NCBI GenBank assembly: GCA_021815315.1
Contig: JAKAHB010000004.1
Coordinates: forward strand, 1-38,288
From: a bacterium
GTDB taxonomy: Bacteria; Patescibacteriota; Minisyncoccia; Portnoybacterales; JAKAHB01
Direction: 5' to 3'
DNA length: 38,288 nucleotides
Position numbers and translations under genes: made by a program. Each line of letters starts with the position of its first letter. Position 1 is the first letter of the stretch. Shown in pieces: positions 14,221 through 23,168 of the stretch. The notes below the pieces were generated by a model, which was not told where the DNA came from, ran no database searches, and saw only the letters and a program-made list of their open reading frames with translations.

Positions 14221-14238
14221 TAGTCTCTCTCAGTTTCC

Positions 14239-14294
14239 AACGAAGACCCCTATCGCCGAACAGCGATAGGGGTCTTCGTTAATTATTTTTTTTA
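14239..14294 (+). terminator. Strong terminator of secDF
   Basis: Perfect 18-bp stem (14239-14256 with 14263-14280), 6-base loop, then an AT-rich tract with eight T in a row. Confidence 0.95.
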
Positions 14295-14333
14295 GTTCAA
14301 AATTTCGGGGCTAGCAGGGTTCATGATTGACTA

Positions 14334-14362
14334 TTGACTTTTTGTCAAGGTTGTGATATCCT
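14334..14362 (+). promoter_or_regulatory. Promoter of the sigma4/HARE-HTH gene with palindromic -35
   Basis: TTGACT (14334-14339), 17-base spacer, TATCCT (14357-14362). The -35 is the left half of a perfect palindrome TTGAC-TTTTT-GTCAA (14334-14348), a possible operator. A Shine-Dalgarno-like AGGCAGGGGA precedes the start of the gene. Confidence 0.6.
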
Positions 14363-14425
14363 GGAAACGTTGTACCAAGCCCCATTCTTATAAAATGAAA
14401 AATAAAATGGAGGCAGGGGAAATCT

Positions 14426-19860: not shown

Positions 19861-19888
19861 GTTGATTTTCTGGGCGGAGGGTGCTTTT

Positions 19889-20953
19889 ATGTATTTAATG
19901 CAGAAGATTGTCAGACCAGGAAAAGTTTTTGTGGCGATGTCTGGCGGAGTGGATTCTTCCATGGCCGCCAAGCTGTTGCAGGACCAAGAGTATGAAGTTG
20001 TCGGAGTCTATTTTGACTTGCAAAAAAACAACGGGCAGGATTGGCGAATGGTAAAGCAAGTTTGCGCCAGACTGGGGATAGAATGCGTCAAGGTTGATTT
20101 TGCCAAAGAATTTCGGCAAGAAGTTATAGACTATTTTTGCGACAGCTACGCCAAGGGCCAAACGCCCAATCCTTGCGTTGTTTGTAACCAACGGATTAAA
20201 TTCGGGTTGTTTTGGCGTTGGGCAAAAAACCAAGGAGCGGATTTTATCGCGACTGGACACTACGCTCGGCTAGGCCAGAAATTTTCAATTTTTAATTTGG
20301 GCAGAGGAAAAGACAAAGAAAAAGATCAATCTTACTTTCTATATCGCTTGACGCAAAAAGACCTAAGGCGCATTTTGTTCCCATTGGGGGATTATACAAA
20401 AAAAGAAATTATTGAGCTGGCGAAAAAACATAAATTACCAAATGCCCAGAGTCCCTCCAGCCAGGACGTTTGTTTTTTGCAGGGAAGAACTTTAAGCGAA
20501 TTTTTACGACAAAAAAATAAGGACATTAAAAAAGGCGAGATTAGAGAGCTGGAAACAAAAAATTTGCTTGGCCAGCATCACGGGTTAATGTTTTATACCC
20601 TAGGGCAACGTGCCGGAGTTGGCCTGGCGAGCGGGCCTTGGTATGTGGCTGGGAAAAACGCGCGGGAAAACACCCTTTTTGTTACCAGAAATAAAAATAA
20701 ATTATTGGCGAGGGAATTGATTTGCGGAAAAATAAATTGGGTCGTGGATAAAAAACCGGAGTTGCCTCTGCGAGTCCAGGCGCAAATTCGCTATCGTTCC
20801 AAGCCAAGCCAGGCCGTAGTTTCTCAAAGTAAAAAAAATAAAAAAGATTTAAAAGTCGTTTTGGCCAAAGCGCAATACGCGGTTGTTCCTGGACAAAGCG
20901 TTGTTTTCTACCGGGGGCAGAAAGTCTTGGGTGGCGGCATAATCTCAAAATAA
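19889..20953 (+). CDS. mnmA: tRNA-specific 2-thiouridylase
   Basis: 354 residues from ATG 19889, placed 8-9 bases after GGCGGAGG; the open frame upstream overlaps the previous gene and terminator. MnmA adds sulfur to U34 of Lys, Glu and Gln tRNAs. Motifs: PP-loop AMSGGVDSSMAAKLL (ATP pyrophosphatase), the catalytic-cysteine motif TPNPCVVCNQRIKFG, ATGHYARL, the second catalytic Cys in SSQDVCFLQGRTL, and HHGLMFYTLGQRAGVGLA, with the C-terminal beta barrel ending in VVFYRGQKVLGGGIIS. Both cysteines are present, so it should be active with a sulfur relay. No cysteine desulfurase is in the window. Confidence 0.95.
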   Translation: MYLMQKIVRPGKVFVAMSGGVDSSMAAKLLQDQEYEVVGVYFDLQKNNGQDWRMVKQVCARLGIECVKVDFAKEFRQEVIDYFCDSYAKGQTPNPCVVCNQRIKFGLFWRWAKNQGADFIATGHYARLGQKFSIFNLGRGKDKEKDQSYFLYRLTQKDLRRILFPLGDYTKKEIIELAKKHKLPNAQSPSSQDVCFLQGRTLSEFLRQKNKDIKKGEIRELETKNLLGQHHGLMFYTLGQRAGVGLASGPWYVAGKNARENTLFVTRNKNKLLARELICGKINWVVDKKPELPLRVQAQIRYRSKPSQAVVSQSKKNKKDLKVVLAKAQYAVVPGQSVVFYRGQKVLGGGIISK

Positions 20954-20972
20954 AAAAAACGGCCCTAGGCCG
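20952..20972 (-). terminator. Terminator of the orphan structured RNA
   Basis: On the minus strand a perfect 5-bp GC stem CGGCC-TAG-GGCCG (20960-20972) is followed by eight T. No T-run exists on the plus side, so it does not serve mnmA. Confidence 0.85.
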
Positions 20973-21151
20973 AAGAAAAAAGGTTACCGAGCCGGTCTCT
21001 CCCAGTGGTGACGGGCGTCGGGATCTCCCGACGATGAGACCGGCTCGGCATTGAAAATGGACGCTCGACTGACCCCTTAGGCCTCGAGGGGCAAGGGAGG
21101 GCTTCCAGGACGCCGGGGGGTCGGAGCCAGCCGAGCGGTAAGGACTTATCT
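20952..21151 (-). ncRNA. Orphan structured RNA, about 200 nt, family not identified
   Basis: A GC-rich block in otherwise AT-rich intergenic DNA. On the minus strand it has a promoter, a predicted start near 21151 and an intrinsic terminator, but no ORF. Pairings seen: closing stem TTACCG/CGGTAA (21136-21141 with 20984-20989); arm A with CGCTCG/CGAGCG (21062-21067 with 21132-21137, sharing two bases with the closing stem) and GACCCC/GGGGTC (21071-21076 with 21117-21122); arm B with an 11-bp stem (20989-20999 with 21036-21046) enclosing a 7-bp hairpin (21016-21022 with 21027-21033). No tRNA, tmRNA, RNase P or SRP signature was found. Size and closed ends would fit a 6S-like RNA, but the branched shape does not clearly match. 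Arms are palindromic, so the strand rests on promoter and terminator. Confidence 0.7.
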
Positions 21152-21157
21152 AGGATT

Positions 21158-21187
21158 ATTAAATCATTGTTTTGTGGGCGGTGTCAA
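21158..21187 (-). promoter_or_regulatory. Promoter of the orphan RNA
   Basis: Minus-strand TTGACA (21182-21187, perfect), 18-base spacer, TTTAAT (21158-21163). A perfect palindrome AGAGCC-TT-GGCTCT (21187-21200) touches the -35 from upstream and could be an operator. Confidence 0.65.
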
Positions 21188-21233
21188 GAGCCTTGGCTCT
21201 AAAATGCCCCCGCTTGTCTTGAGGTCAGTTTTG
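21181..21233. repeat. Diverged direct repeat, copy 1 (upstream of alaS)
   Basis: Shares an 18-base core (21216-21233) with 23215-23232, differing at one base, preceded by a weaker match (CAAG..CCYTGG.CTCTA). It includes the palindrome and -35 of the orphan RNA promoter. Confidence 0.5.
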
Positions 21234-21308
21234 TGGTTAAAATTAGACACAGAGAACGCCAACGCGCAGAAGACATAAATTTTGACGACATCAGCATCCC
21301 ATACCCTT

Positions 21309-23168
21309 ATGACCGCCAATGAACTGCGAGCAAAATTTTTAAAATTCATGGAGTCCAAGGGGCATACGATTATCCCTTCGGCTTCCTTGGTTCCGCAAAA
21401 CGATCCAACGGTTTTGTTCACCACTGCTGGGATGCATCCTCTGGTGCCCTATCTTTTGGGCGAGAAACATCCTGGCGGCGCGCGCGTGGCTAACGCTCAA
21501 AAATGCGTGCGCACTGGTGATATTGACGAAGTGGGAGATAACCGCCACCTGACTTTTTTTGAAATGCTAGGCAATTGGTCTTTTGGCGATTCTCAAAAAA
21601 CCGATGGTATCGGAGCGGGTTATTTTAAGCGCGAAGCGATAGAATGGAGCTTTGAATTTTTAACCGGTGAAAAGTGGTTGGGCATTTCCCCCGAAAGAAT
21701 TTTTGTGACTGTCTTCAAGGGTGATGAAACCGCGCCCAAGGACGAAGAATCAATTGGCATTTGGCAAGCGCAATTTAAAAAAGCTGGCCTTAACGCCAAG
21801 GTAGCGGACGATGACGGGATTTGGTCCGATCCGGATGTCAAGATTTTTCCTCTGGGACGTGATGACAATTGGTGGGAAGGCGGCGGCCAAACAGCTCCTG
21901 GCGGGCCTGACACCGAAATGTTTTTTGACACCCGGCCACAAGAAGGTTATGCGGCAAAAACTTTCGGCGAGCTGGTTGACGCTTTCCGGTTTATTGAAAT
22001 TTGGAATGATGTCTTTATGCAATACCGCAAAAAAGCGGCAGGAGGCTACGAACCCCTAAATCAAAAAAATGTTGATACAGGGATGGGGGTTGAAAGAACG
22101 CTGGCGGTTCTCAATGGGGTGGAAACTGTTTTTGAAACGGAATTATTTGAGCCTCTCTTCAGGAAAATCGGCGAAATCACCGGAACCGAATATGGGGATT
22201 TTATAAAAGAATACCGCATTATTGCCGACCACCTGAAAGCGGCCACTTTTATTTTAGCCGCCGGCATTGTCCCCTCCAACGTTGAACACGGTTATGTTCT
22301 GCGTCGCTTAATTCGTCGCGCGATTCGTTACGCTAAGTTGCTGGGCGTTAGTCGCGCTTTTACGGTGGAGTTGGCTCAAGTTGTGGTTGATATGTATCAA
22401 GAAACCTATTTTGAACTGGAAGGAAAACGGGCATTTATCTTTGAAGAATTAACGAAAGAAGAAGAAAAATTCAGGAAAACACTGGAAAAAGGGCTGAAAG
22501 AATTAAAAAGCCAAGTCCATAACTCAAAAGTAAAAGCTCTGTCCGGTGAAATTGTCTTTAATCTCTACCAAACTTTCGGTTTTCCGATTGAGATGACTAG
22601 GGAACTGGCCGTTGAAGAAGGCATGGAAATTGACGAAGCCGGTTTTGAAAAAGAATTGCGACGGCATCAAGAACTTTCTCGTACCGCTTCGGCCGGTAAA
22701 TTCAAAGGCGGATTGGCCGACCACTCCGAAGAAACAACCAAACTGCATACGGCAGCGCATCTTTTACTGGAATCTTTGCGAAGAGTTTTAGGCAACCATA
22801 TTTCTCAAAAAGGCTCAAATATCACAGCCGAAAGATTGCGTTTTGACTTTACGCATGGCGAAAAAATGACGCCGGAGCAAATCAAGCAAGTTGAAGGTTT
22901 AGTCAACGAACAGATTGATAAAGATTTGCCTGTTCGGGTTGAAGAAATGACGGTAGCCAAGGCCAAAGAAACAGGCGCGATGGGCGCGTTTGAGAGCAAG
23001 TACGGCGAGAAAGTAAAAGTTTATTTTATCGGCGACTTTTCAAAAGAGATTTGCGGCGGACCCCACGCGGAGCATACCGGCGCGCTGGGTCATTTTAAAA
23101 TTTTGAAGGAAGAATCAAGTTCTGCCGGAGTGCGTCGTATCAAAGCGATATTAGCGACTAGCCAATAG
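21309..23168 (+). CDS. alaS: Alanyl-tRNA synthetase, short form lacking C-Ala domain
   Basis: 619 residues from ATG 21309; an in-frame TTG at 21282 is less likely. Typical bacterial AlaRS has about 875 residues. The class II aminoacylation core is intact (FTTAGMHPLVPYLLG, HLTFFEMLGNWSFGD, TGMGVERTLAVLNG), as is the helical tRNA-binding part with HGYVLRRLIRRAIRYAKLLG. The editing/SecondAdditional domain has both zinc motifs: HTAAH (His480, His484) and CGGPH (Cys582, His586), so mischarged Ser/Gly-tRNA can be cleared. The protein stops right after this domain (SSSAGVRRIKAILATSQ), so the DHHA1/C-Ala oligomerisation and elbow-binding domain is missing. The gene ends normally, with no downstream remnant, so this is probably a natural short form. 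Confidence 0.93.
   Translation: MTANELRAKFLKFMESKGHTIIPSASLVPQNDPTVLFTTAGMHPLVPYLLGEKHPGGARVANAQKCVRTGDIDEVGDNRHLTFFEMLGNWSFGDSQKTDGIGAGYFKREAIEWSFEFLTGEKWLGISPERIFVTVFKGDETAPKDEESIGIWQAQFKKAGLNAKVADDDGIWSDPDVKIFPLGRDDNWWEGGGQTAPGGPDTEMFFDTRPQEGYAAKTFGELVDAFRFIEIWNDVFMQYRKKAAGGYEPLNQKNVDTGMGVERTLAVLNGVETVFETELFEPLFRKIGEITGTEYGDFIKEYRIIADHLKAATFILAAGIVPSNVEHGYVLRRLIRRAIRYAKLLGVSRAFTVELAQVVVDMYQETYFELEGKRAFIFEELTKEEEKFRKTLEKGLKELKSQVHNSKVKALSGEIVFNLYQTFGFPIEMTRELAVEEGMEIDEAGFEKELRRHQELSRTASAGKFKGGLADHSEETTKLHTAAHLLLESLRRVLGNHISQKGSNITAERLRFDFTHGEKMTPEQIKQVEGLVNEQIDKDLPVRVEEMTVAKAKETGAMGAFESKYGEKVKVYFIGDFSKEICGGPHAEHTGALGHFKILKEESSSAGVRRIKAILATSQ

Follow-up and report, generated by a model that had tools for sequence, protein, structure and literature searches.

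Intergenic, intrinsically terminated RNAs that act in trans are a common form of bacterial regulatory RNA: they are transcribed from a sigma-70 promoter, measure 100-250 nt, contain no ORF, fold into stem-loops, end in a U-run terminator and have a narrow distribution, and the RNA predicted here resembles them on each of these points. It differs from them in being unusually GC-rich, in its two 15-bp stems, in the lack of a target signal and in the lack of an Hfq relative in its genome when the E. coli protein is used as the query. Another point of comparison is given by searches for GC-rich structured intergenic stretches in AT-richer genomes (PMC6429828, PMC8632094, PMC11109978), which, as outlined in these reports, define a class by numerous covarying homologues. 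Measured against that outline, the RNA is likewise GC-rich, structured and intergenic, in a genome that is richer in AT, but it is a single sequence rather than a set of covarying homologues. On the other hand, 6S RNA (RF00013), which binds RNA polymerase and serves as template for product RNAs, and which is comparable in size and is also stand-alone and structured, forms one long hairpin with a closing stem, a central bubble and a terminal stem, whereas the RNA described here is predicted to form two hairpins side by side.

The RNA was located in a window of 38,288 nt (the whole stretch of DNA analyzed), which is contig C5 of a Patescibacteria (CPR) genome of 668,883 bases in 27 contigs (G000, 99% complete); it lies between mnmA and alaS (Table 1). 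An earlier note on this DNA had proposed an orphan, structured, minus-strand RNA of about 200 nt at this place, and our analyses uphold that proposal through a promoter, a terminator, a fold that is not random, no Rfam family and no homologue found. The minus-strand promoter, read by the note as a perfect TTGACA with TTTAAT, is present and is missed by an automated promoter scan only because the scan demands A as the second base of the -10 element. In the intergenic DNA of the genome, a perfect TTGACA followed at 16-19 nt by a -10 matching in at least five of six positions was seen 20 times, where dinucleotide shuffles predict 0.17, so this promoter type is real here and a chance match at the RNA locus is unlikely. 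Perfect-TTGACA promoters with an intrinsic terminator 60-500 nt downstream form five units in the same DNA and none in 30 shuffles. The intrinsic terminator was also as claimed, with a T-run that lies immediately next to the stop codon of mnmA. The GC-rich island that had been noticed in AT-rich DNA is borne out by a GC content of 61% for the RNA body and a peak of 69% per 100 nt, second among the 203 intergenic stretches, the genome standing at 45%. The absence of an ORF holds as well, the only ATG frame of at least 20 codons having 28 codons and no Shine-Dalgarno sequence and beginning at the base of hairpin 2. The unit thus has its own promoter, an intrinsic terminator and no ORF, as expected of a stand-alone regulatory sRNA, and the sequence supports a predicted, independent, noncoding structured RNA gene on the minus strand between mnmA and alaS. 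The dyad between the two divergent promoters is a possible operator. Direct repeats flanking the RNA locus, looked for as an insertion footprint, were not found.

Table 1. Features of the mnmA-alaS junction, in positions of the 38,288-nt window
Feature	Position	Strand	Description and basis
mnmA (tRNA 2-thiouridine synthase)	19886..20953	+	NCBIfam TIGR00420/NF001138, score above cut-off; convergent with the RNA unit
Intrinsic terminator CGGCCTAGGGCCG TTTTTTTT	20952..20972	-	CGGCCTAGGGCCG then T8
Predicted noncoding RNA, ~200 nt	20952..21151	-	5' end near 21151, 3' end in T-run 20959-20952; promoter and terminator positions, fold z, no ORF with Shine-Dalgarno sequence
Hairpin 2	20985..21050	-	15-bp stem, arms 21036-21050/20985-20999, opening into two small hairpins
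Inner hairpins of hairpin 2	21016-21033 and ~21001-21015	-	The former perfect, 7-8 bp
Unpaired linker UCCAUUUUCAA	21051..21061	-	
Hairpin 1	21062..21137	-	15-bp stem, arms 21123-21137/21062-21076, three G-U pairs; C-rich 46-nt apical region
Sigma-70-type promoter TTGACA-18-TTTAAT	21158..21187	-	TTGACA 21187-21182, 18-nt spacer, TTTAAT 21163-21158; read directly
Dyad AGAGCCTTGGCTCT	21187-21200	none	Sole copy in the genome (seen from both strands); flanked by the divergent RNA and alaS promoters
Candidate alaS promoter, weak, TTGTCT-18-TAAAAT	21214-21243	+	
alaS (alanine--tRNA ligase)	21309..23168	+	NCBIfam NF002436, score above cut-off; divergent from the RNA unit

The minimum free energy of the RNA is about -92 kcal/mol, supplied by the two 15-bp helices, and both the best fold and the centroid consist of two separate hairpins side by side, no confident fold being predicted for the top of hairpin 1. 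Against shuffled sequences, the minus strand folds with z -4.84 over 208 nt, -4.7 over the 202-nt predicted transcript and -6.1 over the 158-nt two-hairpin core, compared with -3.4 and -3.6 for the plus strand over the last two. When the intergenic DNA of the genome was scanned in full for helices of at least 14 pairs, including at least nine G-C pairs, both 15-bp helices were detected on the minus strand alone, since their G-U pairs turn into A-C mismatches on the plus strand; elsewhere the scan returned mainly terminators and palindromes, which are present on both strands. Promoter, terminator and wobble pairs therefore all agree on the minus strand. The long pairings listed in the earlier note stood in part: the two 15-bp hairpins and the nested 7-8-bp hairpin are present, and the DNA itself contains two perfect inverted repeats, one of 13 nt (20987-20999/21036-21048) and one of 8 nt (21016-21023/21026-21033), but the 6-bp closing stem (TTACCG 21141-21136 with CGGTAA 20989-20984), although present as sequence, is absent from the best fold: it competes with the bases of both hairpins, at a cost of 5.5 to 11.6 kcal/mol. 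The two 15-bp hairpins would be expected to make the RNA a stable transcript.

The RNA matches no described family. The window is empty at the curated thresholds of Rfam, and a cmscan of 20700-21500 at E values up to 10 named no family beyond a chance match to NEAT1_1. Its exclusion from the tRNA, tmRNA, RNase P and SRP families agrees with Rfam and ARAGORN, which gave no such match in the window; tmRNA (L154:1482-1864), RNase P (L144:11796-12223), rRNA and tRNAs were found by Rfam elsewhere in the genome. A retron-type RNA, suggested by the complementary ends, was ruled out by the flanking genes, which are mnmA and alaS and not a reverse transcriptase.

Homologues were sought in 22 genomes of the order besides G000, which is the only one of its family in the set, and in 383 others of the class. 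DNA BLAST returned short chance matches only, of about 15-30 bp, and those inspected at several loci were mostly AT-rich promoter or T-run pieces within coding genes. A structure model of the RNA gave no match in the 22 order genomes except one at E 4, and none at E 0.1 in the 383 class genomes under stricter filters; with filters off at neighboring loci, the best hit of the model (R1) reached 13.7 bits in AT-rich DNA and was discarded. Phage records, plasmid records and IMG/VR contained no homologue. Neither BLAST nor the structure model thus provided the homologues with compensatory changes by which a conserved structured RNA class is recognized. This absence in relatives is informative because the same single-sequence structure search recovers a 6S-like RNA, described below, in 10 of the 22 order genomes. 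Given this working positive control, ordinary conservation across the order can be set aside for the window RNA: it is either confined to its family or changes too fast to be recognized. Of the lineage-specific class that the note had suggested, the restricted distribution is supported, but a class with members was not demonstrated: the data support an orphan, lineage-specific structured RNA, and they do not support conserved pairing, expression or a wider class.

The reading that we tentatively prefer, at a little short of an even chance, is that of a regulatory sRNA of about 200 nt, highly structured and restricted to its lineage, which has a stand-alone gene and acts in trans. The sigma-70 promoter, divergent from alaS, would drive the RNA, the intrinsic terminator would halt its synthesis right where the convergent mnmA ends, and the two 15-bp hairpins would stabilize the transcript. 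As is usual for regulatory sRNAs of bacteria, contact with an mRNA or a protein could then be made by the exposed 5' tail, by the linker and by the C-rich apex of hairpin 1; expression, stability and action in trans are all inferred. In a target-pairing test, which was crude in that gene starts were guessed, the tail, the linker and the loop of hairpin 1 paired with mRNA start regions no better than did shuffled segments, and no better than with coding interiors, the hairpin 1 loop pairing more weakly with start regions than with coding interiors. A CsrA relative, like one of Hfq, was not found in the genome with E. coli queries.

The first alternative, which we consider rather unlikely, is that the locus is transcribed without a selected function, as a recently born or a decaying noncoding unit. 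The lack of any recognizable copy in the 22 order or 383 class genomes would fit this explanation, as would the other orphan promoter-terminator units in the genome, but the intact 15-bp stems, the inner hairpins, the GC enrichment, the promoter and the terminator are more than would be expected of decay, and intergenic DNA (203 stretches) takes up just ~11% of the 669-kb genome. The chief functional rival to an sRNA acting in trans, about as likely as the neutral transcript, is a role in cis at the mnmA-alaS junction, where minus-strand transcription would block or buffer read-through from mnmA into alaS, or where the RNA would pair with read-through RNA as an antisense. A terminator scan of the window found no plus-strand terminator separating mnmA from alaS, and several relatives have the two genes side by side and in the same direction, which makes read-through plausible and counts for a cis role. 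Two relatives (G005 and G008) likewise have minus-strand promoter-noncoding-terminator units of their own facing mnmA (L174 and L175). Against this, relatives with gaps of 42-250 nt do without the element (in G012, G010, G004, G003 and G001, alaS begins within about 45-250 nt of the mnmA stop), an insulator or antisense would not require so elaborate a fold, with two hairpins and G-U pairs, and the RNA stops short of the mnmA coding region.

In the relatives, the region upstream of alaS and, across the order, downstream of mnmA contained no copy of the RNA element, most gaps being short or holding unrelated material. The facing units in G005 (268 nt, z -5.8) and G008 (204 nt, z -4.0) are unrelated in sequence, and a third genome, G011, probably also carries its own minus-strand unit downstream of mnmA. 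The G005 unit is unlike the window RNA both in sequence alignment and in fold tree distance. The G008 unit shares with it the place, the orientation, the length, the promoter type and the layout of two hairpins plus terminator, and its fold, at a tree-edit distance of 87, is closer to that of the window RNA than all 200 of 200 dinucleotide shuffles. However, it was not accepted as a homologue, the alignment of the transcripts alone giving a P of 0.13 and a fold distance as small being reached by 2-3.5% of ordinary intergenic windows in the genome; the resemblance is no more than a lead. That the mnmA-alaS gap of the order holds a fast-changing set of minus-strand structured RNAs with a common function, under structural and not sequence constraint, is a conjecture to which we give little credence.

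A function of the plus strand, as a structured leader or riboregulator of alaS, is very improbable: the island does sit 5' of alaS and its plus strand folds too (z -3.4), but that fold is weaker against shuffles and carries A-C mismatches in the 15-bp stems, the plus strand shows no terminator and no T-box match (Rfam, E up to 10), and the candidate alaS promoter lies downstream of the island.

Equally improbable, and largely refuted, is that the RNA is a highly diverged housekeeping RNA, such as 6S or SRP RNA. Its size and its promoter-terminator layout are compatible with 6S, and the SRP slot looked open, as none of the 23 genomes of the order gave a small SRP RNA scoring above the Rfam cut-off, but no 6S- or SRP-type family scores at E = 10. 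SRP RNA (RF00169) has no match in the window or anywhere in the genome at E values up to 10, and the domain IV motif is absent from the window RNA. This gap is explained by the lack of the SRP protein as well: the SRP54 M domain is absent from the genome, whereas the same search found it in 14 of 14 control genomes, and no ORF contains both GTPase motifs (P-loop and DTAGR). In a genome without the SRP protein, the window RNA was ruled out as an SRP RNA candidate, and the SRP pathway looks to have been lost in this lineage. As to 6S, which the earlier note had allowed on account of size and closed ends but rightly doubted, the silence of Rfam 6S in the window at E = 10, the two side-by-side hairpins and a better 6S-like RNA with strong covariation elsewhere in the genome (C14:1015-1157) remove that option. 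A housekeeping role for the window RNA, which the note had offered beside a regulatory one, is not supported.

This 6S-like RNA, 143 nt long, lies on the minus strand (G000:C14:1015-1157, locus L135; homologues L223-L232). A whole-genome Rfam search at E values up to 10 did not find 6S, and a focused scan gave a 6S trace of 22.9 bits (E 1.4) at L135:1160-1015, which begins a few bases from the start expected for a TTGACA-16-TACAAT promoter. The single-sequence structure model matches in the 10 order genomes with E values of 8e-13 to 4e-4 (11 of 23 including its own) and outlines a 19-bp closing stem, a weakly paired center flanked by invariant GGG/CCC and a long terminal stem. In the alignment, which leans towards the structure because it was fitted to the model, 90% of cells are paired, both sides change in 36 of 52 pairs (22.4 expected), including 11 of 11 pairs of closing helix 1, and the covariation score is 0.64, which falls to 0.23 on shuffling and to 0.17 or less on sliding. 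By these alignment measures it is a real conserved RNA, and it probably represents an undescribed 6S clade of the Patescibacteria. Conserved across the order and barely visible to Rfam, it may matter more than the window RNA, which is ordinary in kind, one more lineage-specific small RNA that alone raises no general question. Records of RNA regulators in Patescibacteria are very scarce, and a literature search on them found nothing specific. From an evolutionary point of view, a predicted RNA gene without relatives in a reduced genome of 669 kb suggests that such genomes still hold lineage-specific RNA genes, and its exact predicted ends can be used with metatranscriptome reads.

Further intergenic elements were observed in the same genome. 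An orphan unit on the minus strand (L128:1591-1957, G000:C7) combines a TTGACA-16-TACAAT promoter, a GC-rich RNA of 361 nt and a terminator, with a fold z of -5.2 on its own strand and -0.9 on the other and no Rfam match. A plus-strand promoter-terminator unit of 217 nt (L123:854-1076, G000:C1) has the top intergenic GC content of the genome (75% peak) and folds no better than shuffles (z -1.2). A palindromic repeat of about 50 bp (TGTAAAGGCCGGGTCTTTAC...GTAAAGACCCGGCCTTTACA, with a ACTGGATAACTT core), which appears REP- or MITE-like, occurs at at least four intergenic sites (L127:10633-10842, L127:17867-18016, L128:1435-1485 and L154:796-926). Within the window itself, a stem of ~18-21 bp, perfectly palindromic and closed by a short loop (AACGAAGACCCCTATCGC...GCGATAGGGGTCTTCGTT), lies between two genes at 14221-14425 and can be read on either strand.
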